Source: Tepidimicrobium xylanilyticum (lineage in GTDB: Bacteria; Bacillota; Clostridia; Tissierellales; Tepidimicrobiaceae). Taken from it: a stretch of 64,000 nt of DNA. Both the position numbers and the translations under genes were made by a program. Shown one piece after another: positions 5,254 through 33,528 of this stretch. The stretch spans positions 186,001 to 250,000 of the forward strand of contig NZ_FNNG01000002.1 of assembly GCF_900106765.1 (NCBI RefSeq), in the 5' to 3' direction. The notes under the pieces were generated by a model. It searched no databases and was not told the origin of the DNA. It saw nothing but the letters and a program-made list of their open reading frames with translations. Positions within the stretch are counted from its first letter, which is position 1, and each line of letters opens with the position of its first letter.

Positions 5254-6050
5254 ATGACAGATAAAGTTTTATATAAGGGATTCACATTGATTGATGGAAG
5301 TGGAAAGGAACCTATTAAAAATGCTTGGTTTATAGTGGAAGATAAGAGGATCATAGAAATTGGAAGAGATAATGATCATCCAAATATAGAGGATACTAAA
5401 GTAGTAGATTTAAATGGCAAGACTGTTATGCCAGGGTTAATCAATTGTCATGTCCATATAACCATGGAACCCGTAGCAGCCCCCTTCGCCATGTTAATCA
5501 GAGAATCAGATGCTATGACTACTTTAAGAAGTGCTGCTAATTTAAAGAAACATCTAAGATCAGGCACAACATTTTTCAGGGACTTAGGAGCCCCAAACTA
5601 TATAGATATAGACTTAAGGGATGCAGTAAACGAAGGTATAATTGAAGGGCCAGAATTCATAGTAGCTGGAAAATGTATTACCATGACTGGAGACCATGGC
5701 TGGTCTATAGGAAGAGAGGCGGATGGTGTAGATGAAGTTAGAAAAACCTGTAGAGAACAATTAAAAGCTGGAATAGATGTTATGGTACAGATGCAGGAAC
5801 TCCTTTCAATTTCCATGATAAAACTCCATATGAGTTGAAGTTGATGGTAGAAGCAGGAATGACTCCAATGGATGCTATAGTAGCCTCAACTAAAATTGCC
5901 TCTGAACTATTATATATAGATGAAAATTATGGTACTTTAGAAAAAGGGAAGTTTGCTGATTTTCTGGTATTAGATGAAAATCCTTTAGATAATCTAGATA
6001 CCCTATTTAATATAGATGAGGTTTATAAATTAGGTAAACTAGTAAAATAA
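5254..6050 (+). pseudogene. Amidohydrolase pseudogene with internal deletion
   Basis: The 5' part reads as a metal-dependent amidohydrolase of the imidazolonepropionase/Xaa-Pro-dipeptidase group: MTDKVLYKGFTLIDGSGKEP, VMPGLINCHVHITME (the HxH metal site), LRSGTTFFRDLG and TGDHGWSIGREADG. Near 5780-5790 the sequence jumps to another frame. From there it reads DAGTPFNFHDKTPYELKLMV, then GMTPMDAIVASTKIASELL and GKFADFLVLDENPLDNLDTL, which is the normal family C-terminus. About 150 or more central residues, including further metal ligands, are missing, and the junction is out of frame. The product would be inactive. Family members hydrolyse dipeptides or N-acyl amino acids. With the broken transporter upstream and the T-box it forms a decaying operon. 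Confidence 0.85.
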
Positions 6051-6415: not shown

Positions 6416-7159
6416 CTACAATATCCGTACTGTTATTTCTTTCCCTTCCTCATAGCCTTTCAATTCCTTTACCACTCCAAGTACAGCATTATATAAAACT
6501 CTCTGGACGAAGGGAACCATTTCTATATCCTTTCCTCCAATTTGCAGTTTTACTCTGGACTGTGCCAATACACAATCTTCCCTTCTAGCCTTTCCTTTTA
6601 ATATCAAGGCTCCTAATTGTCTACAACTATAACCGCATTCGCCACAACAATCTTCAGGAAAATCTGGCAATTTATCAAAAACCTTTTCTTCTATTAAATC
6701 CACTATCTTTTCTACATTATCTATAGTATTGATAACCGGCAAGCCTTCAAATTCGTCTAAGCTATTGGATATTTTCCCAGATATAGCAAATACCAAATCA
6801 TCCAACCTTTCCAAGATTTCCTTCTCATTATGGGCAGTAATAATCTTTGGCACATTGGAATCTGTAACTCCTTCCAATATAACAAAATCATGGTTATAAA
6901 ACTTAAGGATTTCATCCATACTCAATTTTTCCTGGAACAATATATCAGTTTCGAAATATCCTCTTGCTGTTACCAGTTGGGAGCCAGCTTCTCTATGCCT
7001 ATATGTATTGGACCCTACCGTGTCTATGGCAAATTTCTCAAAATGTATTTCCTTAACTGAACCTACAGAATAATTCCTACTTCTCAATTCCTTGATTATA
7101 TTCTCGATAGTTGTGGTCTTGCCAGATTCCGTTATTCCCACTACGGAAAAAACCTTCAT
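6416..7159 (-). CDS. MobB-like GTP-binding protein with a cysteine cluster
   Basis: A 247-residue cytoplasmic P-loop protein. MKVFSVVGITESGKTTTIEN contains the Walker A (GITESGKTT). The switch-like HFEKFAIDTVGSNTYRHREAGS and later DFVILEGV match MobB, which assists attachment of GMP to molybdopterin. After the usual domain comes an extra region with FPEDCCGECGYSCRQLGALI and REDCVLA, five closely spaced cysteines plus one more (about residues 173-195). Such a cluster could hold an Fe-S centre or a metal and is absent from E. coli MobB. It is the last main gene of the locus that begins at 19.6 kb and follows EcfT by 14 bases, suggesting a role in cofactor or metal handling. Substrate is not shown by sequence. 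Confidence 0.75.
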   Translation of the reverse strand: MKVFSVVGITESGKTTTIENIIKELRSRNYSVGSVKEIHFEKFAIDTVGSNTYRHREAGSQLVTARGYFETDILFQEKLSMDEILKFYNHDFVILEGVTDSNVPKIITAHNEKEILERLDDLVFAISGKISNSLDEFEGLPVINTIDNVEKIVDLIEEKVFDKLPDFPEDCCGECGYSCRQLGALILKGKARREDCVLAQSRVKLQIGGKDIEMVPFVQRVLYNAVLGVVKELKGYEEGKEITVRIL

Positions 7160-7173
7160 CTACTTCCCTCCAA

Positions 7174-7914
7174 TTATATGAAATAATAATCAATTATATA
7201 TGAAAGGGTAAACACAACAATGGAAAAAATTATCAGATAATCCCACTTAGACATTTTTAACACTAGAAAGCTTGTGCGACTATCGTAGGCTCTAAACCCC
7301 CTCATTTCAATAGCAACCGACAACCTTTCAGCCTTTAATATAGTTCCTACTAATATAGGGGTGAATATATGGGAATACAAACTGATCCTTTTTTTAAGAG
7401 GCATATTATTTACTTCAATTCCCCTTAGCTGGAGGGCAATTAATGAATCCTTGACCTCTTCAGTTAATAAGGGCAAAAAACGAATACCTACTGCTACCAT
7501 GAAGGCTATATCATAGGGTAATCCCCATTGAACCAGTCCTTGTACTATCTTCCTGGAATTTGAAGTGGTAATTATAGTGGCTGAAAATACTATTATCATC
7601 ATTCTTACTATGAATTGGATTCCCTTTTCTAATCCTATGCTAGTTAAGACCGGAAGACTTCCAATGGAAAATAGAACTTCCCCTTTGCTAGAAAATATGC
7701 TCTGGACTATTGCAATAACAGCTATCATGTATAAAAGTCTCTTTACCTTATTTAAACTCCTCTTCAAATTCACCTTAAAAAACAAAGTCACTATTAAGGT
7801 TAAAATTAATATAATACAAAGGGAAAGAGTATCTTCACTTATAATGGCTAAAGTGGAAAAGCAAAAGACCATAAGAAGCTTGGTTCTGGGATCTAATTTA
7901 AATCCTCTGGTCAT
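7174..7914 (-). CDS. ecfT: Energy-coupling factor transporter membrane subunit EcfT
   Basis: A 246-residue integral membrane protein. After MTRGFKLDPRTKLLMVFCFS (the DPRTKL motif typical of EcfT) come helices at about 15-60, 65-85 and 100-115. Then the two cytoplasmic coupling motifs appear: SLIALQLRGIEVN and LSVAIEMRGFRAYDSRT, each holding an xRG core that engages the ATPases. It clamps the substrate-binding S component to the ATPase pair. It overlaps the end of the upstream ATPase gene by 17 bases. Together with the ATPases at 7898 and 8569 and the S component at 10811 it makes a dedicated (group I style) ECF transporter. Confidence 0.9.
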   Translation of the reverse strand: MTRGFKLDPRTKLLMVFCFSTLAIISEDTLSLCIILILTLIVTLFFKVNLKRSLNKVKRLLYMIAVIAIVQSIFSSKGEVLFSIGSLPVLTSIGLEKGIQFIVRMMIIVFSATIITTSNSRKIVQGLVQWGLPYDIAFMVAVGIRFLPLLTEEVKDSLIALQLRGIEVNNMPLKKRISLYSHIFTPILVGTILKAERLSVAIEMRGFRAYDSRTSFLVLKMSKWDYLIIFSIVVFTLSYIIDYYFI

Positions 7915-8572
7915 ATATTATTTCACCCCTATGGATTTCTATTTTCCTATGGGCAATTTCTTCAATAAAGGAATGATCATGGCTAATAATTGTCATTCCA
8001 ACTCCTTTTTCTGTTAGTTCCCTTAGTACTCCTACGAGTATTCTTTTCCTCTCAAAATCCAACCCATTAGTCGGTTCATCTAAAATCATATATTCAGGTT
8101 CATTAATCAATATGGTGGCAATGGCAAGCCTTCGCTTTTCCCCTTGGCTTAACAGTAATGGAAAACTCTCCCTTAAACCCTCCAAGTGAAATTCTTTTAG
8201 TAAGCCTTCTACTCTGTTTTTAATAAAAGCTTCTTCGCAGCCATTAAACTTCAATGCAAATCCCAATTCCTCCTCTACCGTATTACAAAAAAAATGCTTT
8301 TCTGGATTTTGAAATAGATACCCTATCTTGGAACCTATTTCTGCCAAGGTCATTTTAGAATTATCCCTATTGGATATAAGAACTTGTCCCCTAATAGGCC
8401 TTAAAATCCCCATTATAAGCTTACCCAAGGTAGTCTTTCCACTTCCATTGGAACCCAGTAGGGCTGTAACTTCATCCATTCTTATCCTTAAGCTTAAATT
8501 ATTAAATATAGGCCTTCCATTTACATATTCAAAATGTAAATTCTTTATTTCTATAAAATCCAAATAGGTCAC
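7898..8572 (-). CDS. ECF transporter ATPase, second subunit
   Basis: A 224-residue ABC ATPase. Walker A is GSNGSGKTT, the Q-loop is GYLFQNPEKHFFCNTVEEEL (the QNPE form typical of ECF ATPases), the signature is LLSQGEKRRLAIA (degenerate LSQGE), Walker B is YMILDEPTNGLD, and the H-loop is TIISHDHSF. It powers substrate import through EcfT. The GTG start overlaps the stop of the other ATPase gene by four bases, a sign of coupled translation. The degenerate signature and LSGGQ in its partner suggest an asymmetric pair. Confidence 0.9.
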   Translation of the reverse strand: MTYLDFIEIKNLHFEYVNGRPIFNNLSLRIRMDEVTALLGSNGSGKTTLGKLIMGILRPIRGQVLISNRDNSKMTLAEIGSKIGYLFQNPEKHFFCNTVEEELGFALKFNGCEEAFIKNRVEGLLKEFHLEGLRESFPLLLSQGEKRRLAIATILINEPEYMILDEPTNGLDFERKRILVGVLRELTEKGVGMTIISHDHSFIEEIAHRKIEIHRGEIIYDQRI

Positions 8573-9249
8573 CAGCCTTTAACCTCTAATTTCCCGTCCT
8601 TAAGCTCCATTAGCCGATCTGCTAATTCTAATATATCCCTATTATGATCTACCAATATAATAGTCCTTCCCTGTTCTTTCAGTTTGGATATTATATCCTT
8701 TATCCTCCCTTTACCTTCTTCATCTACCTGTGATGTAATCTCATCAAATAATAAGAGTTCCGGTTCCATAGCTAATACTGCAGCAATGGCTATAAGCTGC
8801 TTCTGCCCTCCAGATAGATTATTAGGATTTTCACATCTATACTCTTCCATTTGAACTAATTTAAGGGTCTTTTCGATTCTTCTTCCTATTTCTCCTCTTT
8901 CCACCATTAGATTCTCTGGCCCAAAGGCAATCTCATCTTCTACAGTAGGTGAAAATAGCTGAGTATCTGGGTCTTGGAATACTATCCCCACTTTTTTAGT
9001 TATTTGGGCTATTTTTAAGTCCTTAACATCCTTCCCCCATAATTTAACTTCCCCTTGGATTTTGCCCTTCCTAATATGGGGTATAATCCCGCAGATGATA
9101 TTTAAGAGGGTACTCTTACCAGATCCGCTTAATCCTGTAATAGCCAATACTTCTCCCCTGTTTAGGCTTAAGTCTACTCCCTTTAATATATAATCTGAAC
9201 CTATCCTATATTTAAAATATAAATTATGTACTTCCACTGGCTTAATCAT
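8569..9249 (-). CDS. ECF transporter ATPase, first subunit
   Basis: A 226-residue ABC ATPase. Walker A is GLSGSGKST, the Q-loop VGIVFQDPDTQLFSPTVEDE is the QDPD form found in ECF ATPases, the signature is NLSGGQKQLIAIA, Walker B is LLLFDEITSQVD and the H-loop is IILVDHN. It pairs with the ATPase at 7898. Its ATG overlaps the stop of the upstream SUOX-like gene by four bases, so the ATPases are embedded in the same operon as the extracytoplasmic redox-type proteins. The transported substrate cannot be read from an ATPase. Confidence 0.9.
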   Translation of the reverse strand: MIKPVEVHNLYFKYRIGSDYILKGVDLSLNRGEVLAITGLSGSGKSTLLNIICGIIPHIRKGKIQGEVKLWGKDVKDLKIAQITKKVGIVFQDPDTQLFSPTVEDEIAFGPENLMVERGEIGRRIEKTLKLVQMEEYRCENPNNLSGGQKQLIAIAAVLAMEPELLLFDEITSQVDEEGKGRIKDIISKLKEQGRTIILVDHNRDILELADRLMELKDGKLEVKGW

Positions 9250-9758
9250 CTTATTTCCAGCTCCACAACGAATTTACACCATCTTTGGCTAAACTGGTCT
9301 TTCTTAACAATTATCTGGTAAGGCCCACTGCCTCCCCTTTCCCTGCTATCCAGATATCTGTCATTTATCTTATAGGCCAAATAAATATTATCCTCATCCA
9401 TCACCTCATCTATGCTAAAAACAACGGTATAACCATCTATCCCCCGCACTATTACCTGCCTTTTATCAGCTATAGATATTCCCACTTCCTCAATTAAATT
9501 AATTAATGGTATTCCAGTATAGCTGTAGTCTTGCGGGTCTGTATCGCTAGTGTCTAGGGTAGCCAAAAACTCTACTTCTCCTAATTCAACTATATCCTCA
9601 AATTTTATCATGCTCTCCATTTCATCCCCTTTTACGATTATTTCAGCCATTTCCAAGGCCCCCCTTTTATCCTTTACAAGCTCTCTATTCATTAAGGCAA
9701 AAACCCCCAGTATAATTACTAATATCAATATAATAATACCAATGGTTTTATTACTCAA
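9246..9758 (-). CDS. Membrane-anchored small SUOX-fold (molybdopterin-oxidoreductase-like) protein
   Basis: About 170 residues: one N-terminal membrane anchor (IIILILVIILGVFALM) and an outward-facing domain. That domain shows the pattern of the sulfite-oxidase fold: a FEDIVELGEVEFLATL strand-helix start, YTGIPLINLIEEVG, GIDGYTVVFSIDEV, and a closing GGSGPYQIIVKKDQFSQRWC. The Moco-ligating cysteine of true sulfite oxidases is missing. The TTG at 9758 is chosen as start because GGAGG sits about eight bases before it; the upstream ATG would lie inside the preceding gene and before that site. It is a paralogue of the protein at 11422, sharing DxFSQRW. It likely works outside the membrane with the ECF transporter that follows. 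Confidence 0.7.
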   Translation of the reverse strand: MSNKTIGIIILILVIILGVFALMNRELVKDKRGALEMAEIIVKGDEMESMIKFEDIVELGEVEFLATLDTSDTDPQDYSYTGIPLINLIEEVGISIADKRQVIVRGIDGYTVVFSIDEVMDEDNIYLAYKINDRYLDSRERGGSGPYQIIVKKDQFSQRWCKFVVELEIR

Positions 9759-10818
9759 ATTGGCCCCCTCCTTCAAGAATTATATAAGGAACCATTAGGT
9801 CCTCATATCTAAATAGGCCATGATCACCACCATCATCAGTTGAATGCATTCCATGGTCTGCAGTTATAATTACCTTCCCCTTCCACTTGGATACCATTTC
9901 TTCTAAATAGCCATCTATCCGTTTGATAAACTCCATAGTTTCCTCAGAAAGGGGTCCATAGGCGTGGCCGCAATCATCAATTCCATGAAAATGAGTAAAT
10001 ATAAAATTATAGCCTTCCTTTATAGCCTCCATAGTAGCTTTAAATACTTCATCATCGGTAAAACCATCCTTATTTTCATCCAAATGCAAGATGGGTTCAA
10101 TTTCCGTTTTAAGTATACCTATATTCCCTTCTACATATAAGGTCTTCTTATACAATTCCTCTGCTAACTTGAATATGGAATCAACCTTTAACTCCCTCTC
10201 ATTTCTAGAATGGATTCCATTTTCTATAGGATACCTGCCTGTTATTATGGCAGCTAATCCTGCATTGGTTACAGGTTTATAGACTGACATGGCCTTTTCA
10301 GCCCTTGCTTGTTCCTTTAAAAAGGGTAAATATTCCCCTTCAATAGCATATAGGTATTGATGGTATCCCAATCCATCTAACAAAATAAACAATACATCTT
10401 CCTCTACCAAAAAATTAGACATATCCTCATAGGCATGGGTAATGTTTTTATTAGGAGGATTTAATACTACACCTATCACATCCTCAACTAGAGCTGTGCC
10501 AGTTCGGTCCATGTAACCGATAACATCGTTATTAGTTAGGAAATACCCCCCTTCTTGAAGGCTTTCCACTTGGCCTAATCTACCCATTATCACTGCTCTA
10601 TCATATTCCTCATCTATAAGATCCTCTAGCCTAAATTCCCTATATTCCTTTGGAGATATACTTTTTATATTCCTTTCCCCATCGATTATATTCATTCCCA
10701 TTTCCCTTCTATCATCACTAGTAACTTCCCCATCCCTTGAACCCAACTTCCCACAGGAAGGTATCAATAGCATTATTAAGCTAAATAGGAAAAGTAGAAA
10801 TATGTACTTCTTATTCAT
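9751..10818 (-). CDS. Type I phosphodiesterase/nucleotide pyrophosphatase-like lipoprotein
   Basis: A 355-residue secreted lipoprotein: signal peptide with lipobox LLIPSC (Cys22). The alkaline-phosphatase-superfamily metal sites are present in order: LFILLDGLGYHQY, the nucleophile region PVTNAGLAAIITGRYPIEN, HFHGIDDCGHAYGP, VIITADHGMHSTDDGGDHG. In this superfamily such enzymes cleave phosphodiester or pyrophosphate bonds, for example in nucleotides or FAD. Here it would act on the cell surface. It overlaps the S-component gene by eight bases, so a role in trimming a ligand before ECF import is attractive but inferred. An alternative is phosphoglycerol or teichoic-acid cleavage. Confidence 0.8.
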   Translation of the reverse strand: MNKKYIFLLFLFSLIMLLIPSCGKLGSRDGEVTSDDRREMGMNIIDGERNIKSISPKEYREFRLEDLIDEEYDRAVIMGRLGQVESLQEGGYFLTNNDVIGYMDRTGTALVEDVIGVVLNPPNKNITHAYEDMSNFLVEEDVLFILLDGLGYHQYLYAIEGEYLPFLKEQARAEKAMSVYKPVTNAGLAAIITGRYPIENGIHSRNERELKVDSIFKLAEELYKKTLYVEGNIGILKTEIEPILHLDENKDGFTDDEVFKATMEAIKEGYNFIFTHFHGIDDCGHAYGPLSEETMEFIKRIDGYLEEMVSKWKGKVIITADHGMHSTDDGGDHGLFRYEDLMVPYIILEGGGQFE

Positions 10819-11389
10819 CGTGTCCTCCTTTGTCTATTAGGTTTTTTAATGCGTTATTTTTCTTCAAACCTTTAATTATATTATAGGCTATCAATCCGCC
10901 AATTCCTCCTGAAAGGGAAGCTGAAGTTAAAGTCAGTACTAAAGGTATTAATGGCAGCCTGAAGAACACCAAATTAACTAGAAAAGTTCCACTTATGTTG
11001 GCTAATATTCCTGCTATAAAATAATTACCTGGATTAAACTCCCTTCTTTTAATCAATAGAAGATAAAGGTCTACAACCAATCCGGGAATTATGTATGTAA
11101 AAAAGCTTACAATTCCATGGGTTCCGTATATGCCAAGGCTTACCACCATGATGGATTGAACTAGGGATATTAAGGTAGCAACTCCAACCTTTCCTATTAA
11201 GCCCATTCCCAACACTATCCACATCATATATAGGCCTCCTGCAATAGCCCCACCGGGAATGAATAGGGGACCGGTGATGATATGGGCCAAGGGCACTATA
11301 ACTGGCTTGGTGGCAATACCTAAGGTAGCCATTAGTGCAATTACTATTATTTCAAAAATGGAAAATTTATTCACCAAATTCTTAAACAT
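10811..11389 (-). CDS. ECF transporter substrate-binding S component, ligand unknown
   Basis: A 192-residue protein with about six membrane helices: IFEIIVIALMATLGIATKPV, a GPLFIPGGAIAGGLYMMWIV loop-helix, VATLISLVQSIMVV, TYIIPGLVVDLYLLL, YFIAGILANISGTFL and LVLTLTSASLSGGIGGLIAY. The ALMATLGI stretch in helix 1 resembles the alanine-rich motif that S components use to dock on EcfT. Vitamin specificity cannot be assigned; it lacks features that I would recognise as RibU, ThiT, BioY or CbiM. Its position inside this locus suggests the ligand relates to flavin, pterin or metal-cofactor supply. Confidence 0.8.
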   Translation of the reverse strand: MFKNLVNKFSIFEIIVIALMATLGIATKPVIVPLAHIITGPLFIPGGAIAGGLYMMWIVLGMGLIGKVGVATLISLVQSIMVVSLGIYGTHGIVSFFTYIIPGLVVDLYLLLIKRREFNPGNYFIAGILANISGTFLVNLVFFRLPLIPLVLTLTSASLSGGIGGLIAYNIIKGLKKNNALKNLIDKGGHDE

Positions 11390-11421
11390 AGTTTTTCCTC
11401 CAAAATCCTCAAGCCCTTCAG

Positions 11422-11916
11422 CTATTCTATAATAATCTCTTCAACATGTTTAATCCAGCGTTGACTAAAAGGATCTCTTCTTATTACCAACTGAAAGGGG
11501 CCATTGCCTCCATGTTTCTTAGATTTCATAAGCTCTCCATCCCTTTCAAAAGTGAGATAAACATTGTTTGGTTCCAAAAGCTCCTCAACCTTCAAAATTA
11601 TCCTATATCCATCTGTTGCATTGAAGGTTATCCTCTTTGCACCAGATGTATCTATACCCAAGGATGAAAAGAAAGTGGATAATTCAATACCCTTATATTC
11701 CGTTTCAATAGGCTTTTTCCCGCTACTCCTTACTACAGCAGGAAAAACAATTGCTTCTGAATGACTATATATAAATTCCTTATCAACAATCTTCTCAGCT
11801 TCTCCTTGAACGATGGTTATAAAAATATCCTCTTCTGCAAAAAATCCTAATGAAAAGGCAAAAATAATTATCAACCCACTTACAGTTCCTATGGCAATTA
11901 TCTTTTTAATACTCAT
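11422..11916 (-). CDS. Membrane-anchored small SUOX-fold protein (paralogue of the 9246 protein)
   Basis: A 164-residue protein with an N-terminal signal/anchor (IAIGTVSGLIIIFAFSLGFF) and one extracytoplasmic SUOX-like domain. Landmarks: YKGIELSTFFSSLGI, ITFNATDGYRIILKVEELL and the closing GGNGPFQLVIRRDPFSQRWI. The domain contains no cysteine at all, so it cannot ligate Moco in the usual way. It shares GxGPxQ and DxFSQRW with the 9246 protein. Its ATG overlaps the upstream NapH-like gene by four bases. A ligand-binding or electron-relay scaffold role is inference. Confidence 0.7.
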   Translation of the reverse strand: MSIKKIIAIGTVSGLIIIFAFSLGFFAEEDIFITIVQGEAEKIVDKEFIYSHSEAIVFPAVVRSSGKKPIETEYKGIELSTFFSSLGIDTSGAKRITFNATDGYRIILKVEELLEPNNVYLTFERDGELMKSKKHGGNGPFQLVIRRDPFSQRWIKHVEEIIIE

Positions 11917-13103
11917 CTTATCCTCCTATTTTCCTCTAAGGCTTGATTAATTCCGCTCTTAACCGCATTTATAAAACCTCTACTTGTGGCTGTAGCTCCG
12001 CTTATAGCATCCACATTGAAATTTTGGCTCTCAATTATATTTATGGAAATCCTCCTAAAAACCTCCTCAAAATATCCAATAGTTTCATTGTGGTCAGTTG
12101 GATTTATATCTACAATCCTCCCATTTCTTATAATTACCTCTACCTGCATCCTGCCACCAAAACCAATTCCAGTCCCAATATAGGTTCCATCCTTTAAAAT
12201 ACCTAAATCCATTATAGATTGGGTATTGTTGTTTGCTTTAATTGATGGAAAGAATAGATAAATTCCTATTATCAAGGTAAGACTAATGGCTATATAGGAA
12301 TTCCTATTAAGGGTTTGCCTTACAAATTTTAAAGTATAGCCCTCAGTATGCCTTATACATTGGGTTTCCACACATTTTAAACACCGAATACACTCTGGCG
12401 AAATCTCACCATTATCAGGCTTATCTATGGCAACAGCGCAATCCCTTAAACAATAGGTACATCCACCGCACCTTTCATTGGCATAGATTCCAGATGGGCC
12501 AAGGACAGTAAGTAAGCTCTGAAAAGCCCCTAATGGACACAAAAGCCTGCAGAAAGCCCTTTTTATAAATAGGGAAGTTGAGGCTATTATCAATAGTATA
12601 AAAAAACCTACCTGCAAATTAAAGCCTAGGAATAGGTTTAAATAAGCAAGCCAGGGAGAATAGAACGATACCCTGTTCCCCAGACCTAAAATGCTCAATG
12701 TTAGGACTATTAACAATATTAAGTATTTTAATACTTCAGGTTTGAAATAACTCCCTCTTGGAAGCCTTCTCCCCCTAATCCCCAGCCTTCTTCCCATATA
12801 TTTAAAGAAATCCTGTAGGGCTCCTATGGGACACATATATCCACAGAAGAACCTGCCCATTAATAGGGCAACAAGGGATATTCCAATGGTAAGGGCAATA
12901 GACCTGCTTATCCCCCTCCACTTGTAGGATGGATCAGTAAAAGTAGATTTTAGGGCACTCCAGCCCCCATAGGGGTTGATATCCCCTATAGATAGTACTT
13001 TAGAGTCCACAAGCCCATTGATATATAGATAATATACTATACAAGTTATTATGGTAAATAAGGTAAAAGCTATCTGTATGATACTTCTCTTGCCTATTTT
13101 CAT
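11913..13103 (-). CDS. NapH-like membrane polyferredoxin with C-terminal flavin-binding domain
   Basis: A 396-residue membrane protein. Helices lie near 10-30, 65-85, 125-145, 155-180 and 270-290. Paired CGYMCPIGA (87-95) and CRLLCPLGA (185-193) motifs are the NapH/NosR-type cysteine motifs at the membrane face. Two clusters follow, CGGCTYCLRDC (212-222) and CIRCLKCVETQC (238-249), fit for [4Fe-4S] centres. After a final helix the C-terminal domain (about 300-396) is an FMN_bind domain with DAISGATATS (SGAT at 368-371), where ApbE attaches FMN covalently. It would pass electrons across the membrane to outside flavins. No ApbE gene is visible in this window. Confidence 0.88.
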   Translation of the reverse strand: MKIGKRSIIQIAFTLFTIITCIVYYLYINGLVDSKVLSIGDINPYGGWSALKSTFTDPSYKWRGISRSIALTIGISLVALLMGRFFCGYMCPIGALQDFFKYMGRRLGIRGRRLPRGSYFKPEVLKYLILLIVLTLSILGLGNRVSFYSPWLAYLNLFLGFNLQVGFFILLIIASTSLFIKRAFCRLLCPLGAFQSLLTVLGPSGIYANERCGGCTYCLRDCAVAIDKPDNGEISPECIRCLKCVETQCIRHTEGYTLKFVRQTLNRNSYIAISLTLIIGIYLFFPSIKANNNTQSIMDLGILKDGTYIGTGIGFGGRMQVEVIIRNGRIVDINPTDHNETIGYFEEVFRRISINIIESQNFNVDAISGATATSRGFINAVKSGINQALEENRRIR

Positions 13104-14680
13104 CTTTTCTCAACCCTTATTATATCCTTCATTAGCTCCCTGTCGCCCTGGTAGATGCTTACCATGTTTTCATCATACACCATATAGGAATTGAGCATTT
13201 CCTCATAGGATATTTCCCTTTCTCCGCCATTTCTATCCGCTAGAGCAAATCTAGCTTCCTCACTCCATCTCATCCCTGCTGTTAACAATACATCCTCCAA
13301 GAGTAACCCTTCCTTACCACCTATGTCCTTGGTTCTAACCACTTGCGACATTTTATTTGGGAATATGACAGCATCCTTGGTAGTGGAAAAATGGGTCATA
13401 TGCTTTACATTCATGCCCAGTTTAAAGGTAGGGGCTATATTCATTGGGGCATTATCCCCTTCAACCTTTATAAAGTATCTTTGCCTGACCATAGATATGG
13501 TTTCATTTTTAACATAACCATCGACAGAAACCATGGTAAAAAACCCCTTTTCATCTACTTCGTCGAACTTGCTTAAAATCCTGCCTAATTCGTAGGATTT
13601 ATCCTTACTACCGTAGTATTCATAGTAGTAGGGTTCAATATCTTCCACTAAGGGTTCAAATATATGAACCTTATCTATATCCTTGGGAGAAATTTTGTCG
13701 TACAGGTCGATGTTTGTTACCATCTTCACCCAATAGGGCCCCAATTCATTAGGCAAAATTACCCTTACAGGCTTCTCATCCTCCTTAATGGGCTTGCCAT
13801 TAACTTCCCAGGCCAGTATCACATCGTTGGTTTCCAATTTTTCTTTATCTATCAAGGTATAATACCCATCCCGGCCTGTTACCCCTATGCCCTCATAGTC
13901 ACTTAAGTCTATCCCTTCTCCTTCTAGAATATCTCGAAGGGTAGGGCCTTTTACACTTAGGGGGGTCTCCGTACCTGTGGTATTGATAAGGATTACATCT
14001 ATTTCCACTTGCTCATATTCCTTTATTTTCTCAGTATTAATCCTAATTAAACCACCTTCCCAATTTATGGCGAAGCTATTGCTGTCCTTCTCCCACATCT
14101 CCTGAGGTACCACATCTGCTACCCCTTCCATCTTTAAACTCTTCATCAAATATTGGTAGGCACCTATAGCTGCATTAACTGCATTGACCACAGCTTGGGA
14201 ACTAACCGTTGCTCCCGTCACCTGAATGATGTCCTCTGGCTTTTCCTTTTCTAAAACCACCAGATTTAAGTATTTGTTTGCCACTATATTTTTAAACCTA
14301 TCCAGAAACCAGTTGGATTCAATATGTTCTGCATAATCTAAGGATTCTTCATGATCCAATATCTCTATTCCCAGCAATTCATCGGTACTGCTATCTATTG
14401 CTACCAACACATCTACAGGCCCATTATAACCTACACAGCTGGATACAAAGACCTTCAAGTCCCCATCTACCTCATAGGCCCTCTTTACCCCAGGAAAATT
14501 AATGGAGATAAACATATCATCTGCAATATTCTTTACTAGTCTAACCTTTTTTGCATTGGGAAAAAAGGCCCTAACCTTAAGTTCCTCTTCAGAAGCTTTA
14601 TTCTTCATGCCAAAAAGTAGGCCTACTATGGTAACTACTATTACTAAAAAAATTATGTAAAAGTTTTTGCCCCTCATCAT
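13100..14680 (-). CDS. Anchored flavin-binding protein with SUOX-like domains
   Basis: A 526-residue protein with an N-terminal signal anchor (FYIIFLVIVVTIVGLLFGM). Residues about 35-180 form an FMN_bind domain ending in VTGATVSSQAVVNAV (TGAT at 155-158), a probable covalent FMN site. Residues about 204-330 resemble a SUOX-fold domain (GPTLRDILEGEGI, GVTGRDGYYTLIDKEKL, LGPYWVKMVTNIDL). A further region (335-520) looks like a divergent copy, with VSVDGYVKNETISMV and a last segment on an induced-site pattern. It overlaps the NapH-like gene by four bases, which is consistent with electrons moving from the membrane ferredoxin to this protein. The domain pairing flavin plus SUOX fold is unusual. 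Confidence 0.75.
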   Translation of the reverse strand: MMRGKNFYIIFLVIVVTIVGLLFGMKNKASEEELKVRAFFPNAKKVRLVKNIADDMFISINFPGVKRAYEVDGDLKVFVSSCVGYNGPVDVLVAIDSSTDELLGIEILDHEESLDYAEHIESNWFLDRFKNIVANKYLNLVVLEKEKPEDIIQVTGATVSSQAVVNAVNAAIGAYQYLMKSLKMEGVADVVPQEMWEKDSNSFAINWEGGLIRINTEKIKEYEQVEIDVILINTTGTETPLSVKGPTLRDILEGEGIDLSDYEGIGVTGRDGYYTLIDKEKLETNDVILAWEVNGKPIKEDEKPVRVILPNELGPYWVKMVTNIDLYDKISPKDIDKVHIFEPLVEDIEPYYYEYYGSKDKSYELGRILSKFDEVDEKGFFTMVSVDGYVKNETISMVRQRYFIKVEGDNAPMNIAPTFKLGMNVKHMTHFSTTKDAVIFPNKMSQVVRTKDIGGKEGLLLEDVLLTAGMRWSEEARFALADRNGGEREISYEEMLNSYMVYDENMVSIYQGDRELMKDIIRVEKR

Positions 14681-14688
14681 CTTATTAC

Positions 14689-15459
14689 CTACTCCACTAC
14701 AATTCTATCTATATTTGAAACCCATTGTGGCTTGTTCACATCTCCTGCTTCCTTCTGGCCTACTATTAGTTTAAAAGGAGGTCCTTCTACTGGGTCATAT
14801 TCTACTCCATTTTCTTCCCAAGCTATTATCATGGGAAGTTTTTTATTTGGATCCGTTTCGTCTATATAGTCCTGCCTCTTAACCTCTTCAACAGTAAACT
14901 CCATACTGTAACCATCCGTTGCAATGATAGAAACTTTAGCAGCTTCTGAAGATATATTTGCTTTTTCAAGCAACTTCCACAAATTAACTCCCTTAAAATT
15001 AGTATGGGCAGTCGTTCCAAAATTGTTTATGGAATAGTAGTCAGCTTGGAATATGATATCATCCATAGCCTTAAGGTCCTTTAAGGTCAGCTTCAACTCC
15101 TTGCCAACCTTTCCCTCTATCTTTAATAGAGCTGCCTCTTCTTCCACTACTTCCTCCTCATCAGCTTTTTGAGGCTCGGTTTCTTTAGGTTTTTGAGCCT
15201 GATCAGTAGTCTCCTCTTTAACTACCTCCTCTTCCTCAACTTCTTCGATTTCCTCTTGAACTGCTTCCTCCTCTGTAGGAGTAACCTCTCCTCCAGTATC
15301 TGTGCCCATTTCCTCCTCTTCAGCTAGGTCTACCATTTTTTCCTGTTCCAGATCTATGGCAATGTTCTCACTCCTATCTTTAGATTTACATCCTGTTAAT
15401 GATAAGGAAATGGTTAAAATGATGATAATAACTAATTTGATTAGCTTAAACCTTCTCAT
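14689..15459 (-). CDS. Lipoprotein with acidic linker and C-terminal SUOX-fold domain
   Basis: A 256-residue lipoprotein. The signal peptide ends in SLSLTGC (lipobox, Cys24). Residues about 35-110 are an acidic, Glu-rich low-complexity spacer that would hold the C-terminal domain away from the membrane. The domain (about 110-256) shows LTLKDLKAMDDIIFQADYYS, FKGVNLWKLLEKANI, IIATDGYSMEFTVEEVK, LPMIIAWEENGVEYD and a closing GPPFKLIVGQKEAGDVNKPQ followed by WVSNIDRIVVE. This is the clearest single SUOX-like domain in the locus, and it lacks the Moco-ligand cysteine. Nine bases separate it from the next gene. Confidence 0.75.
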   Translation of the reverse strand: MRRFKLIKLVIIIILTISLSLTGCKSKDRSENIAIDLEQEKMVDLAEEEEMGTDTGGEVTPTEEEAVQEEIEEVEEEEVVKEETTDQAQKPKETEPQKADEEEVVEEEAALLKIEGKVGKELKLTLKDLKAMDDIIFQADYYSINNFGTTAHTNFKGVNLWKLLEKANISSEAAKVSIIATDGYSMEFTVEEVKRQDYIDETDPNKKLPMIIAWEENGVEYDPVEGPPFKLIVGQKEAGDVNKPQWVSNIDRIVVE

Positions 15460-15476
15460 AGAACCCTCCTAAATAG

Positions 15477-15499
15477 GGCAATAGGAAAATCCTATTGCC
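15477..15499 (-). other. Intercistronic hairpin
   Basis: GGCAATAGG at 15477-15485 pairs with CCTATTGCC at 15491-15499 around a short loop, between the 970-residue SLH gene and the lipoprotein gene. A strong T run does not follow, so it looks more like an RNA-stability or partial-termination element than a full terminator. Confidence 0.45.
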
Positions 15500-15502
15500 G
15501 CA

Positions 15503-18415
15503 TTAGTTTTTAATAAACCTCAGTAACATAACCGTAGCTTCTGCCCTAGTTGCATTATTATTTCCTCCAATAATACTACCTAATAAGCCCTTCATAATTC
15601 CTGCATCTATTGCTTTAGCTACCGAATCCCTGGCCCATCCTTCAACTTCATCATCAAAATTAGACAATATATATGCTACCTCTTCCTCACTTAATTCATT
15701 ATCTAATAGGCTAGCTAATATAGAAGCTATCTCCTGCCTTTTTATTGGCGCATTAGGTCTAAAGCTGCCATCGCCATAGCCCTTAATAAGCCCAGCATTT
15801 ACAGCAGATAATACCTCTTTATAAAACCAATCTGAATCCTTTACATCCTTAAATGGACTGTCCAATTCAAAAGAATCCAATCCCAATATTCTAACCAGTA
15901 TTGCTATAAACTCAGCCCTTGTAATATCATCATTGGGCCTAAATTTGTCCTGGCTTCCCTTTACATATCCCATAGCAGCCATCTCTTCTATTTCCTGCTT
16001 AGCCCAATGGTTTTTAATATCTTCAAAACCTCCAGTGCCAATAAGGGGTATACCTAAATCTTTCACATCTTCCATCTTAGGCTCTTCATAGTCTCCGTTA
16101 CCTACCACAATACAGTCCGTCCATTTAACCCACATGGATTTGCTTTCCTCAAATATAAGCCTTAATGGACCAAAAGCGTTATTATATGCATAGCCTCCAT
16201 CGCTCTCATTTGGTACTAGCGGATATCCATCAACTGCATAAGCCAATATTATCTTCTTCAACTCCCCTTTTGAATTTACTATGCCCTCCATTAGATCCTT
16301 GCTACTTCTTATAATTTGATTATAATTCGGCCCACTAAATACCCTTACGCTGCTGGGTATCTCTACACCTTCCTTAAGTCCTACAACCTTGGATATAATA
16401 TCCCACAAGACTATGCCTTCAAATTCACGCACACCATCTCCAGTATATACATCCCTGACTATATGATCTGTCAAGGATTCTAATTGCCTTAGAGTAAAGG
16501 TCATAGGTTCCTTAATTTGGGAACCGGTTATTCTTAAAACTGGCATGTCTAGGTATTGTGTATAAACTCCTTGGTTGTGGTTCCAGGCTGCATCCTTACC
16601 TACTTCCTTGTAGGTGGATTCTCCAGAATCCTTCCTGTCCTCATCAAAGGATACAGGCTCTCCTCCTCCAATGATTATCTCCTTCAAAAACTGTACTTGA
16701 TTAGACCCATTAGGATCGTTATAATCCTTCTTACCAAATATAACCCTTACAGGCCCTCCATCATTACCTAAACCAGAATTATATCCTTCATCAGTAGACC
16801 TTATGACATAGGGGTATCCGTTAAAACCATAGGCTACTAATACAGGCATCCCCGTATGAAGAGGCACTTCACTAGAACCATCAAATCTTCCATCACCTAA
16901 ATCCTCTGGATTCTTTTCATAATATCCATACAATGAACTATCCTTTATCTCCTTGATAGTCATTGGTGCAAAATAATACCTATCGGCTGCTATAAACTGG
17001 ACACTAGTATTTTCATCTATATTGGGGTCTATTCCTATCTTAAGGAGTAAATCCCATAGTGGAATCCCCTTATACCGATTGTAATACCAGAAGTACTCGC
17101 TGTTGGATAAACTGTACTCATCTTCATACTTTAGATCATCCATGGCCTCTATATCAGAAACCTTAAGCCTTACCTCCCCATTCACCTTATTACCATGGAT
17201 AATTATCTCATAGTTGGTATATTTAAGGTCATCATAAGGCGGATAGGTATGCTCGTATATATTCTTTGCATCCTTCTCCTCTACGTAGATATAAGCAACA
17301 TTTGAGAATTCCTTGGCTGTGTTCTTATCCTGTTCATATACTAGCTTAAAGCAGCCATTGGCGTTATATTTTTCAGGCCTGTAACCTGCATCTGTGTCCA
17401 AATATACAAAGGGTACCTCATTTATTCCATAGGCAATAGTGTAATAGCCTACTTCCTCTATAGGTATAGTTAAGATGGTTTTTCTGGACTTATCCTTAAA
17501 TATTAGGTTTCCTGCCTTGGGGGTAACCTTTACGTAGTTGTCTACTAAGTATTTTGCATTTATTCCTTCATAGTTGTTTTGAACAACTTTCCCATCTACC
17601 TTTTCATAGTATGTAACCTGTTCCTGACCAGCAACATCCTCTTCGATCTGCCTCAAGGAAATAGCCCTATAGCCTTCCACCCCAGGACCTTCGATGGTAA
17701 AGGTTGCGCCAGTTATGGCATCTATATTATATGGAGCCCCAACATAGCTAATGTGCTTATAGGGTGAATCCTTGCTAATTCCTTGGCTAAGCTTTTCAGA
17801 TAGCCTCTCATCGCCAATGGTTATCTTCACAACCTCTTTTCCCCATTGAGATAGGTTCATATCATCAATACTTGTCTGACCAAAAGCTAATTTTGGAAAA
17901 CCCTTGTCCAAATCCTTGTTGGCAATCTCTTTATCTTCCCATCTAATTGGAGGTGAAAAATTGTTTTTAGGGAAATCGACCAACTCCAAAGTATACTTAG
18001 CTATCATGGGCTCAACTTTTTCCTTGGTCTTTTCAGTGAAATCTCGGAAGAAATAGGTGTTTTTAAGTTCGCTTATGGTCTTAGTAAATTCAAAACCATC
18101 AGCACAGGTAAACTTAACCTGATAGTCCTTGTCAGTCTTTAGGTTATCCTTACCTATTAATTCGAATAGGTCATACCCCTTTACCTTGATGATCTTGTGG
18201 AAATATAGGCTATTGTTTCCAGAAAAATATCTTTCCACCATCTGATACTTATCCCAGTCGGATTCTGTAATTTTGACATCCTCATAAACTCCTGTACCTG
18301 TAATCAATAGTTCAACTGCTGCAGCTTCAACTATGTCCCCTAGAAAGGCAAATTTGGAAAGTAGCATCCCTATTATTAATAGGACTGAAAATAATCTATT
18401 TCTTTTACCTTTCAT
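15503..18415 (-). CDS. S-layer-anchored protein with four SUOX-like repeats, a TGAT flavin motif and three SLH domains
   Basis: A 970-residue secreted protein. Signal peptide about 1-32. SUOX-like segments lie at roughly 32-202, 246-380, 402-585 and 622-775; typical pieces are YKGIPLWDLLLKIGI, FEGIVLWDIISKVVG, GGPVRVIFGKKDY and FGPLRLIFEESKSMWVKW. Between the first and second is DAITGATFT (TGAT at 235-238), resembling a covalent FMN attachment site, although a full FMN_bind domain around it is less clear. Three SLH domains (about 796-840, 855-900, 918-968) bind secondary cell-wall polymer, so it sits on the outer wall. It follows the shorter SLH gene at 18484. It could present flavin or another ligand at the cell surface; function is not established. 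Confidence 0.8.
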   Translation of the reverse strand: MKGKRNRLFSVLLIIGMLLSKFAFLGDIVEAAAVELLITGTGVYEDVKITESDWDKYQMVERYFSGNNSLYFHKIIKVKGYDLFELIGKDNLKTDKDYQVKFTCADGFEFTKTISELKNTYFFRDFTEKTKEKVEPMIAKYTLELVDFPKNNFSPPIRWEDKEIANKDLDKGFPKLAFGQTSIDDMNLSQWGKEVVKITIGDERLSEKLSQGISKDSPYKHISYVGAPYNIDAITGATFTIEGPGVEGYRAISLRQIEEDVAGQEQVTYYEKVDGKVVQNNYEGINAKYLVDNYVKVTPKAGNLIFKDKSRKTILTIPIEEVGYYTIAYGINEVPFVYLDTDAGYRPEKYNANGCFKLVYEQDKNTAKEFSNVAYIYVEEKDAKNIYEHTYPPYDDLKYTNYEIIIHGNKVNGEVRLKVSDIEAMDDLKYEDEYSLSNSEYFWYYNRYKGIPLWDLLLKIGIDPNIDENTSVQFIAADRYYFAPMTIKEIKDSSLYGYYEKNPEDLGDGRFDGSSEVPLHTGMPVLVAYGFNGYPYVIRSTDEGYNSGLGNDGGPVRVIFGKKDYNDPNGSNQVQFLKEIIIGGGEPVSFDEDRKDSGESTYKEVGKDAAWNHNQGVYTQYLDMPVLRITGSQIKEPMTFTLRQLESLTDHIVRDVYTGDGVREFEGIVLWDIISKVVGLKEGVEIPSSVRVFSGPNYNQIIRSSKDLMEGIVNSKGELKKIILAYAVDGYPLVPNESDGGYAYNNAFGPLRLIFEESKSMWVKWTDCIVVGNGDYEEPKMEDVKDLGIPLIGTGGFEDIKNHWAKQEIEEMAAMGYVKGSQDKFRPNDDITRAEFIAILVRILGLDSFELDSPFKDVKDSDWFYKEVLSAVNAGLIKGYGDGSFRPNAPIKRQEIASILASLLDNELSEEEVAYILSNFDDEVEGWARDSVAKAIDAGIMKGLLGSIIGGNNNATRAEATVMLLRFIKN

Positions 18416-18439
18416 AGTTTACCTCCTTCCATTATGGAT

Positions 18440-18467
18440 AAAGAGGGACAACCATTGTTTCCCTCTT
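18440..18467 (-). other. Hairpin between the two SLH genes
   Basis: AAAGAGGGACAA and the facing TTGTTTCCCTCTT region (18440-18467) form a near-perfect stem of about eleven pairs. On the minus strand it follows the first SLH gene; only a short T stretch follows, so partial termination or transcript processing is likely. Confidence 0.45.
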
Positions 18468-18483
18468 CATCTATTTATTAAAA

Positions 18484-19641
18484 CTATTTATTAAACAAGG
18501 CATTATATACTATTAAAGCTGCCTCTGCCCTAGTAACCACTTTTTTAGGTTCAAATTTTTCCTCAGCAACTCCCTTAAATACGCCTTGAGCATCTAACCA
18601 CGCCACTTGGTTAGCTGCCCATGATGAAACTTCGTCCTTATCTTCAAAAGATGTTTTTTCCATTACAAACTTGTTCATCTTCTCCTGATCTACTAGACCA
18701 GCTAGTACAGCAGCCCTTCCCACAACAGCAGCTAATTCTTCTCTAGTTATTTCTTTATCTGGTCTGAAAGTTCCATCAGTATACCCCGTAAATAAGCCTT
18801 CTCTAACGGCTGCTTCTACATAAGGAGCAAACCAGTTTTCAGCTTTTACATCGGTAAAGTTTCCAGAATATTCCTCTAGTTCATAGCCTATAGCTTCAAC
18901 TGCTATCTTGCAGAACTGAGCTCTTGTGAAAACATCACCTGGAGCAAATATATTATTACCTACTCCGCTTACAATTCCCCTCTTAGCAAGTTCATAGATG
19001 GCTGTTTCTGCAAATTTATACTCTTCTGTAATGTCGGTAAATACAATCTCCTCAATTTCTTTTACTGGCTCTATTTCCGGTTTTGTTAGTTCTTTAACCG
19101 ATTCCTCTGCTTGTTCAATAGCTTCTCCTACAGTTATTCTTACTACCAATTTAAATACAGTACCAAATTCTCCTTCTTCTTTTAACTTTCTATAGATGAC
19201 TATTTCCTCACTCTCTGGGTTATCGTCATTATCGATTGGCTCTCCATCAATCTCATAAGCTAAAACATATTTTAAATCTTGGTTTAATATATCTTGTAAA
19301 GTCTGTGGATCTATTGGATATCCATCTGATGCTTCAAAATTTACCAAAGCATTTTCAACAGTTAATCCAGCTACTTTCTCTAATATGTAAGCTAAGCTAA
19401 CCCCTTTAACCTTTACAGACTTTTGACCCGATTTACTGTTGTATATGTATTCTTCATTAATTTGGGCTTCTTCTGGCATAGCTTTTAAATCATCAAGGCT
19501 AAATTCCAATTCCTTTTCCACACCTGGTCCTGAAATTTTAATGGCAAAAGCGTTAACATTACCTGCAAATACTATTCCTTGTGACAATATTAATACCATT
19601 GCCATAATAATTGAGACAATTTTGAATTTTTTGATAAACAT
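18484..19641 (-). CDS. S-layer protein with one SUOX-like domain and three SLH domains
   Basis: A 385-residue secreted protein; signal peptide about 1-26 (VLILSQGIVFAG). One SUOX-like domain spans about 32-172: LEFSLDDLKAMPEEAQINEE, VKGVSLAYILEKVAG, FEASDGYPIDPQTLQDIL, YVLAYEIDGEPID and FKLVVRITVG. Three SLH domains follow (about 199-243, 261-305, 329-380) with YTDGTFRPDKEITREELAAV as a typical core. No cysteine lies in the SUOX-like domain. It is the first gene after the structured leader RNA and therefore the gene most directly under that element. It is a shorter relative of the 15503 protein. Confidence 0.82.
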   Translation of the reverse strand: MFIKKFKIVSIIMAMVLILSQGIVFAGNVNAFAIKISGPGVEKELEFSLDDLKAMPEEAQINEEYIYNSKSGQKSVKVKGVSLAYILEKVAGLTVENALVNFEASDGYPIDPQTLQDILNQDLKYVLAYEIDGEPIDNDDNPESEEIVIYRKLKEEGEFGTVFKLVVRITVGEAIEQAEESVKELTKPEIEPVKEIEEIVFTDITEEYKFAETAIYELAKRGIVSGVGNNIFAPGDVFTRAQFCKIAVEAIGYELEEYSGNFTDVKAENWFAPYVEAAVREGLFTGYTDGTFRPDKEITREELAAVVGRAAVLAGLVDQEKMNKFVMEKTSFEDKDEVSSWAANQVAWLDAQGVFKGVAEEKFEPKKVVTRAEAALIVYNALFNK

Positions 19642-19669
19642 AATACCTCCACCTTTCTAATTTATTTAA

Positions 19670-19915
19670 ATTTAGTCAAAACTAAATTTAAAGCAAATAA
19701 AGGGAGAGGAAAAATTTAAAGCAGCATCCCAGATGGAAATGCCGCATCTTTAAACTTCTCCTTTCCACTGGGAGGCTTGACCGTTTCCAGTCAAACCCTA
19801 TCGGCAAGTTGACCATAAATTTATAGTGTAAATTCCCAGGCCAAAATGCTCGGAGACTATGGAGCTATTCAACTATTCTACTTATTAATACTTTAACATA
19901 CAAATCTTCCTATGT
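19670..19915 (-). ncRNA. Structured 5' leader with terminator, candidate riboswitch (possibly Moco/Tuco class)
   Basis: Read on the minus strand the leader contains CTCCGAGC, GGCCTGGGAA, then a ten-pair hairpin capped by GAAA (GGTTTGACTG/CGGTCAAGCC), directly followed by TCCCAGTGGAAA. That last segment can pair with TTTCCATCTGGG further down (eleven pairs). The same downstream region can instead form a terminator: TTTAAAGATGCGGCAT with ATGCTGCTTTAAA, then a T run. Mutually exclusive pairings of this sort are the mark of a riboswitch. The conserved-looking blocks and the molybdo-enzyme-like genes downstream suggest the molybdenum/tungsten cofactor motif (RF01055), from memory only. It is not an FMN, TPP or cobalamin element by their known cores. 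Confidence 0.65.
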
Positions 19916-19923
19916 AAAGCTGT

Positions 19924-19951
19924 ATAGTATCAAAATTATCCATAATATCAA
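19924..19951 (-). promoter_or_regulatory. Candidate promoter for the SUOX/SLH/ECF locus
   Basis: On the minus strand TTGATA (19946-19951) and TACTAT (19924-19929) are 16 bases apart. Transcription would start near 19917, just before the structured leader. Confidence 0.45.
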
Positions 19952-33211: not shown

Positions 33212-33528
33212 TAAAATAAAAATTCGACCATATTTTTGACATACTATGACGAAGACGTGAACTATCTAAATAATCAAATACAGAGAGCTGGGGTAGCTGA
33301 GAACCAGTTTTGATTTGATAGGGATCTCTCACTTCTGAGTTATACAGCTGAACCTGTAATAGTAGTAGGTTGTATCGGTAGGCTCCGTTATAAGGCCAAG
33401 GTTTAAATAGGAATATACTATTCCTATCGAACCTAGTGAGTTAATTATCGCGAGATAATTAAGAAATAGAGTGGTACCGCTATTTACATAGCCTCTATAT
33501 GTTAAAAACATATAGAGGCATTTTTTAT
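33212..33528 (+). ncRNA. T-box riboswitch, probable Leu (CUC) specifier
   Basis: The T-box core AGAGTGGTACCGC (33468-33480) precedes a strong terminator: GCCTCTATATGTT (33491-33503) with AACATATAGAGGC (33507-33519) and a T run. Stem I: GAAG (33251-33254) pairs with CTTC (33332-33335), 85 bases in all, with the distal AGAGAGCTGGGG...GAACCAG loop. Just inside the helix is CTC (33328-33330), then A, which fits a leucine specifier. ATC (isoleucine) lies four bases before it, so a branched-chain codon is read either way. Uncharged tRNA would prevent termination and turn on the liv operon. The second T-box in the window has the same geometry. Confidence 0.93.

Follow-up and report, generated by a model that had tools for sequence, protein, structure and literature searches.

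A riboswitch-controlled operon of Tepidimicrobium xylanilyticum probably encodes an importer of the tungsten or molybdenum cofactor

A 64,000-nucleotide stretch of Tepidimicrobium xylanilyticum DNA (contig NZ_FNNG01000002.1, positions 186,001 to 250,000; hereafter the window, in whose numbering positions are given) carries an operon that probably encodes an energy-coupling factor (ECF) importer for the tungsten or molybdenum cofactor (Tuco or Moco), that is, for tungsten- or molybdenum-bound molybdopterin (W/Mo-MPT). We assign this substrate because of the class of riboswitch that controls the operon and because the operon occurs in genomes without Moco biosynthesis. The operon comprises thirteen open reading frames (ORFs), all on the minus strand from 19641 down to 6416, separated by gaps of at most 68 nt or, at numerous junctions, overlapping by 4-26 nt. 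In Pfam and NCBIfam searches five proteins match Oxidored_molyb, the sulfite oxidase (SUOX) fold, two match FMN_bind and two have SLH repeats; the same searches identify a NapH-type ferredoxin, an S component (PF09819), a phosphodiesterase (PDE; PF01663), CbiQ/EcfT, two ECF ATPases and a MobB protein with an FeS domain. This layout bears out the gene list of a first-pass annotation made from the sequence, order included. All five PF00174 matches of the whole genome are inside the operon. The exported proteins have Sec-type or lipoprotein N-termini, and no Tat (twin-arginine translocation) motif was seen in the N-termini of the operon proteins. S/TGAT flavinylation motifs are present in NapH-FMN, FMN-SUOX and SLH970 (names as in Table 1), and the genome has one ApbE, on another contig than the operon.

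Directly 5′ of the first gene is a Moco/Tuco riboswitch (RF01055), which the first-pass annotation had overlooked within the interval it described. The P3 stem is missing in the aptamer alignment, which is the form of the Tuco variant; P3-lacking aptamers have been tied to the tungsten cofactor (Regulski 2008, PMC2408646). The loop of a putative terminator hairpin directly 3′ of the aptamer, UUUCCAUCUGGG, can pair with CCCAGUGGAAA at the 3′ end of the aptamer (duplex -18.4, shuffle p 0.02), and this complementarity suggests an OFF switch. In most loci a hairpin and then T residues directly follow the aptamer. The riboswitch is upstream of the window operon and of 25 of the 30 orthologous loci in the order. 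When a covariance model built from the order's riboswitches was run on 69 other loci (upstream sequence of at least 2.4 kb was available for 55), a colinear upstream riboswitch was found in at least 40, including Halanaerobiales and Dehalococcoidia assemblies; a search at eight loci around distant S-like paralogues found it in none (0/8). In genomes that encode the surface module away from the ECF module (G094, G082, G034 and G020; loci L177, L179, L181 and L182), the surface module bears its own riboswitch, and the two modules are therefore parts of one Moco/Tuco regulon. Tandem Moco/Tuco riboswitches, two or three, stand ahead of the operons at L142 (8189-8655), L133, L152, L096 and L128.

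The gene set is widely conserved. Among 199 genomes of the order, 43 have S component matches; five weak ones (G023, G007, G038, G165 and G128; 30-33% identity) were excluded as paralogues, and G082, where the match is partial and lies at a contig end, was retained once its ECF module was seen (L180). The resulting 38 S-positive genomes span nine families, and PF00174 is found in all 38, versus 5 of the 161 S-negative genomes. The neighbourhoods share a core of S component, PDE, SUOX_I, EcfA1, EcfA2, EcfT and MobB, and the upstream part takes one of two forms, either the full surface module as in the window or a small FMN_bind protein with a SUOX-like lipoprotein. A species-level genome scan returned 248 loci; in the best 80 of these the S component, ECF, SUOX_I, MobB and PDE recur, and the ECF set, complete in the window operon (S component, EcfT and two ATPases), is kept in most. 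Among the species that hold the set are [Clostridium] ultunense, the auxotroph-like isolate Anaerosalibacter massiliensis (G058), Alkaliphilus peptidifermentans and Maledivibacter halophilus; Pelotomaculum and assemblies of Dehalococcoidia and Halanaerobiales hold it too. The co-occurrence in other genomes on which the first-pass annotation had staked its proposal is thus widespread, which argues that the gene set is not a product of chance. In 40 of the 80 loci a RIO/APH-like kinase (motifs D-x-N-L-R-N-F and D-F-E) is present, mostly right after MobB, and is a candidate for phosphorylating a dephosphorylated imported cofactor. Examples beside MobB or EcfT are L047_08 (L047:6508-7146), L057:4366-5058 and L063:4333-4959, among others; the window operon is without the kinase. 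At L060, L062, L063 and L064 a 630-residue secreted protein with FAD_binding_2 and FMN_bind domains, fumarate-reductase-like, follows the kinase.

The second line of evidence is phylogenetic. Both MoaA and MoaC are missing from 89 of the 199 genomes, 16 S-positive and 73 S-negative. With AOR-type enzymes defined by PF02730, and formate dehydrogenase (FDH)/DMSOR-type enzymes by PF00384 at E below 1e-50, such enzymes are encoded in all 16 of the S-positive MoaA/MoaC-negative genomes versus 8 of the 73 S-negative ones, and in all 38 S-positive genomes. MoeA is also missing in 13 of the 16, including G031, a single 4.68-Mb contig, and completeness is at least 95% for nine of the 16. One of the eight S-negative exceptions, G093, is an artefact, its ECF module being cut at a contig end (L189); the S profile, run against all eight exceptions, a set without a positive control, gave no match. 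Two loci, L164 (G006) and L165 (G118), hold a TGA-containing (selenocysteine-type) formate dehydrogenase and MobA, without MoaA, MoaC, MoeA or the S component. MoaE (PF02391) was found in none of 23 genomes tested (G000, that of the window, and 22 related ones), even those having MoaA and MoaC, and was dropped as an uninformative marker of biosynthesis; the order may have a different molybdopterin synthase.

The SUOX-like domains are proposed to bind the pterin cofactor. In an AlphaFold (AF2) model of SUOX_I (pLDDT 87.7) the fold matches both the pterin-binding protein PruR (7rkb; Z 16.4, rmsd 2.1, 125 aligned) and SUOX enzymes (2xts and 3hbg; Z 17.3, rmsd 2.6), so that the sulfite-oxidase fold named in the first-pass annotation holds for SUOX_I in its predicted structure. 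A cysteine scan, however, found the Mo-ligating cysteine missing from the SUOX-like domains, and sulfite oxidase activity was rejected for this reason. The sole cysteine of SUOXlip is that of the lipobox, FMN-SUOX and SLH385 have cysteines outside the SUOX domain only, and the sole cysteine of SUOX_I, Cys167 near the C-terminus, is 97% conserved and is not the Mo-cysteine. An LDTS/T motif, judged by eye, stands roughly at the expected cysteine position. SLH970 has no Pfam SUOX match, and a family-specific hidden Markov model (HMM) gives three to five degenerate SUOX-like segments; in its family (window 16100-18110) C104, C355 and C768 are conserved, at positions that differ from the Mo-cysteine of SUOX enzymes. 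The S component (PF09819, 48.9 bits versus a cut-off of 25.2) has no PDB relative detectable by sequence; its model (pLDDT 83.5) is matched best by YkoE (5edl; Z 18.9, 183 aligned, rmsd 5.0) and next by ThiT. The alkaline-phosphatase (AP) superfamily motifs of PDE are kept across 48 homologues, and long PDEs give a hint, no more than suggestive, of a SUOX-like domain at the N-terminus (HHalign probability 28%, E 6e-4).

The gene content of FDH clusters bears on the level at which the cofactor might enter. The cluster of the window's genome, like that of G057, holds MobA, a conserved gene (L077_06), a Tuco riboswitch, the tungstate transporter TupABC, which in the window's genome is thus encoded separately from the operon, and two MoeA-type genes. 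In G031, G017, G025, G058 and G094 it ends after MobA or after the L077_06-type gene, and the Tup-MoeA block and riboswitch are gone from that locus. In four auxotroph-like genomes (G002, G033, G034 and G045) AORs were seen without a strong FDH-type match. AOR carries bis-MPT without a nucleotide. Since the FDH clusters keep MobA without the TupABC-MoeA block, and AOR-only genomes agree as well, the gene content fits entry as W/Mo-MPT, to which MobA would then add GMP where needed.

Table 1. Features of the operon and its leader, in window coordinates
Feature	Position	Strand	Evidence
Moco/Tuco riboswitch aptamer, P3-lacking (tungsten-cofactor type)	19742..19867	-	RF01055, 66.5 bits vs gathering cut-off 36
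Putative intrinsic terminator hairpin, directly 3′ of aptamer	19710..19763 (approximate limits)	-	-17.1 kcal/mol
SLH385, secreted SUOX-like domain and three SLH repeats	18484..19641	-	PF00174 1.1e-6; PF00395 x3
SLH970, secreted, degenerate SUOX-like segments, TGAT motif (IDAITGAT), three SLH repeats	15503..18415	-	PF00395; family HMM
SUOXlip, lipoprotein with SUOX-like domain	14689..15459	-	PF00174 1.6e-11; lipobox LTGC
FMN-SUOX, membrane-anchored FMN_bind (TGAT) and SUOX-like	13100..14680	-	PF04205 1e-13; PF00174 9e-13
NapH-FMN, NapH-like membrane ferredoxin, C-terminal FMN_bind (SGAT)	11913..13103	-	PF12801 2.9e-17; PF04205 8.2e-15; Cys clusters
SUOX_F, small anchored SUOX-like protein	11422..11916	-	PF00174 7.9e-6; Cys scan: zero cysteines
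ECF S component, YkoE-like; proposed Tuco/Moco-specific subunit	10811..11389	-	PF09819 9.1e-13; AF2; PDB match 5edl
PDE, extracellular type I phosphodiesterase/nucleotide pyrophosphatase, probable lipoprotein	9751..10818	-	PF01663 2.7e-19
SUOX_I, small anchored SUOX/PruR-fold, proposed pterin-cofactor binder	9246..9776	-	PF00174 1.3e-8; AF2 fold matches
EcfA1 ATPase	8569..9249	-	PF00005 1.5e-30
EcfA2 ATPase	7898..8572	-	PF00005 1e-30
EcfT	7174..7914	-	PF02361 2e-29
MobB-FeS, P-loop MobB and FeS domain	6416..7159	-	PF03205 7.7e-21; PF04060 3.9e-5

Elsewhere in the window, on the plus strand, are a T-box leader (33237-33499, 105 bits) and an amidohydrolase-like ORF that stops early (5254-5838, 194 residues), possibly a broken gene.

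The proposed importer resembles several known systems in part. YkoE systems are thiamin-related. The S component agrees with that of the YkoEDC ECF vitamin importers in Pfam family and fold, and the operon shares with them two ATPases, EcfT and riboswitch control. Here, however, the riboswitch is of the Moco/Tuco class, which argues for an S component substrate other than thiamin or hydroxymethylpyrimidine (HMP), and surface binding proteins, PDE and MobB-FeS are added, with a kinase in relatives. PruR is a periplasmic protein that binds monapterin, has Trp in place of Cys and acts with its partner DcpA in c-di-GMP signalling (PMC13259868). Like PruR, which is among its best fold matches, SUOX_I is a small SUOX-fold domain with a signal anchor and without the Mo-cysteine; unlike PruR, it accompanies an ECF transporter under a Moco riboswitch, and the recurring neighbours that were named include no DcpA-type gene, although no search was aimed at DcpA. 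FMN_bind, a NapH-like protein and ECF components are also features of the flavin-based extracellular electron transfer (EET) locus of Listeria (PMC9973259) and of flavinylated NapH-like systems (PMC8238504). NapH-FMN belongs to the latter class as a PF12801 protein with FMN_bind and an S/TGAT motif, its flavinylation itself being predicted. In contrast, Ndh2 and RibU were not identified here, the redox arm is accessory and the regulator senses Moco/Tuco. A further related description is that of Syntrophomonas wolfei, in which two P3-lacking RNAs beside 'sulphite oxidase' genes were reported as unexplained exceptions and a triple-riboswitch operon carries transport, MPT-related and unknown genes (PMC2408646). 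By that description, P3-lacking riboswitches stand there too ahead of transport, MPT-related and 'sulphite oxidase' genes, and by analogy the S. wolfei operon with tandem P3-lacking Moco RNAs is probably the same kind of system; the 2008 account proposed no importer and left the sulphite oxidase genes as exceptions.

The redox genes could be read differently, with the SUOX-like proteins as MsrPQ-like tungsten or molybdenum enzymes of the cell surface that are fed electrons via NapH and FMN, and the ECF transporter exporting cofactor to them. The SUOX fold, FMN_bind and NapH do stand together in the operon, an ECF flavin transporter that supplies flavins outside the cell is a precedent from Listeria (PMC9973259), and without Tat signals cofactor insertion would have to happen outside. 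Such enzymes would, however, be without the cysteine that ligates Mo, genomes without Moco synthesis have nothing to export, the riboswitch resembles an OFF switch, and many operons do without NapH, which together make export to surface enzymes quite unlikely. The last point also decided against an electron relay as the main function, as NapH-FMN is missing from many operons that retain the S component, PDE, SUOX_I, ECF and MobB. The first-pass annotation had offered 'a cell-surface electron relay or cofactor-acquisition system'; acquisition gains support from the riboswitch and from the genomes without Moco synthesis, and the relay, present in the sequence, is reduced to an accessory.

Nearer to the importer of W/Mo-MPT would be one for metal-free molybdopterin or another MPT-level intermediate, the metal being inserted inside, perhaps by MobB-FeS. 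The conservation of MobB-FeS in the operon and the small kinase frequently found after it would suit such a route, which we consider unlikely given that the metal insertase MoeA is missing in 13 of the 16 auxotroph-like genomes. That PruR is among the solved structures closest to SUOX_I might instead point to import or sensing of ordinary pterins of the kind that PruR binds (monapterin, neopterin or folate-type); Moco/Tuco riboswitch control and the tight association with Mo/W enzymes favour Moco and render ordinary pterins very improbable. Tuco riboswitches are also found upstream of W/Mo transporters (PMC2408646), likewise at L077, and the ECF transporter could on these grounds take up tungstate or molybdate. 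The oxyanion alone, however, would be useless without MoaA, MoaC and MoeA, the window's genome already has TupABC, and the pterin-binding fold, PDE and kinase would be left unexplained; uptake of an oxyanion is hardly credible.

Several observations weigh against import of W/Mo-MPT or limit the case for it. The link between the enzymes and the S component, which supports import, has a Fisher p of 4e-12, a value that ignores shared ancestry, although the 16 genomes fall in seven families. More than half of the S-positive genomes make Moco too, so that the system is not confined to auxotrophs, and seven S-negative MoaA/MoaC-negative genomes other than G093 have Mo/W enzymes. For G006, a complete single contig, and for G118, either another cofactor route exists or the enzymes are without cofactor. 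SUOX_I is about the size of PruR, and the PruR pocket is, by its published description, probably too small to take Moco (PMC13259868). Of 27 cases of antiterminator pairing compared with mononucleotide shuffles, just 14 came out at p <=0.02, a moderate result, and the evidence draws no firm line between W/Mo-MPT and metal-free MPT.

Taken as a Tuco/Moco importer, the operon would work as follows. SUOX/PruR-fold domains without the Mo-cysteine, anchored by SLH repeats, lipid or membrane segments, would bind pterin cofactor released by other cells, and PDE would remove nucleotides outside the cell from forms such as molybdopterin guanine or cytosine dinucleotide (MGD or MCD). ApbE would flavinylate the FMN_bind domains, and these and the NapH-like ferredoxin would pass electrons outwards, perhaps keeping the oxygen-sensitive cofactor reduced and so guarding its dithiolene or metal against oxidation. 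The YkoE-like S component, together with EcfA1, EcfA2 and EcfT, would move the cofactor inwards, where MobB-FeS, and in many relatives also the RIO/APH-like kinase, would process it, and the Tuco riboswitch would turn the operon off once cofactor is plentiful.

It is commonly assumed that a cell dependent on Moco has to synthesize it (PMC9793310). Our search of the open-access literature, with subscription papers and preprints outside it, found no bacterial Moco importer, nor did any Moco membrane transporter come up there, and the part of a 2013 survey of riboswitch regulons covered here lists no Moco-uptake class (PMC3766115). A 2018 survey counted several hundred organisms that have molybdoproteins and lack a complete Moco pathway, a finding that in its view needs explaining (PMC6147048). 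The transporter itself is of a known kind; the proposed substrate, the surface capture module and the redox arm are new. We lean, by a little, towards the view that the operon is the first pathway in bacteria for importing the W/Mo-molybdopterin cofactor intact, in which SUOX/PruR-fold proteins serve as dedicated surface binders and a flavin-driven arm as redox guard, and that Tuco/Moco is traded among anaerobes like a vitamin. If true, this would explain 'orphan' molybdo- and tungsto-enzymes in lineages unable to make the cofactor, as well as the Tuco riboswitches ahead of supposed sulphite oxidases in S. wolfei (PMC2408646). It gives a testable account for numerous anaerobes (248 loci), many of them from biogas and syntrophic communities, and would suggest that the cofactor is shared within these communities.

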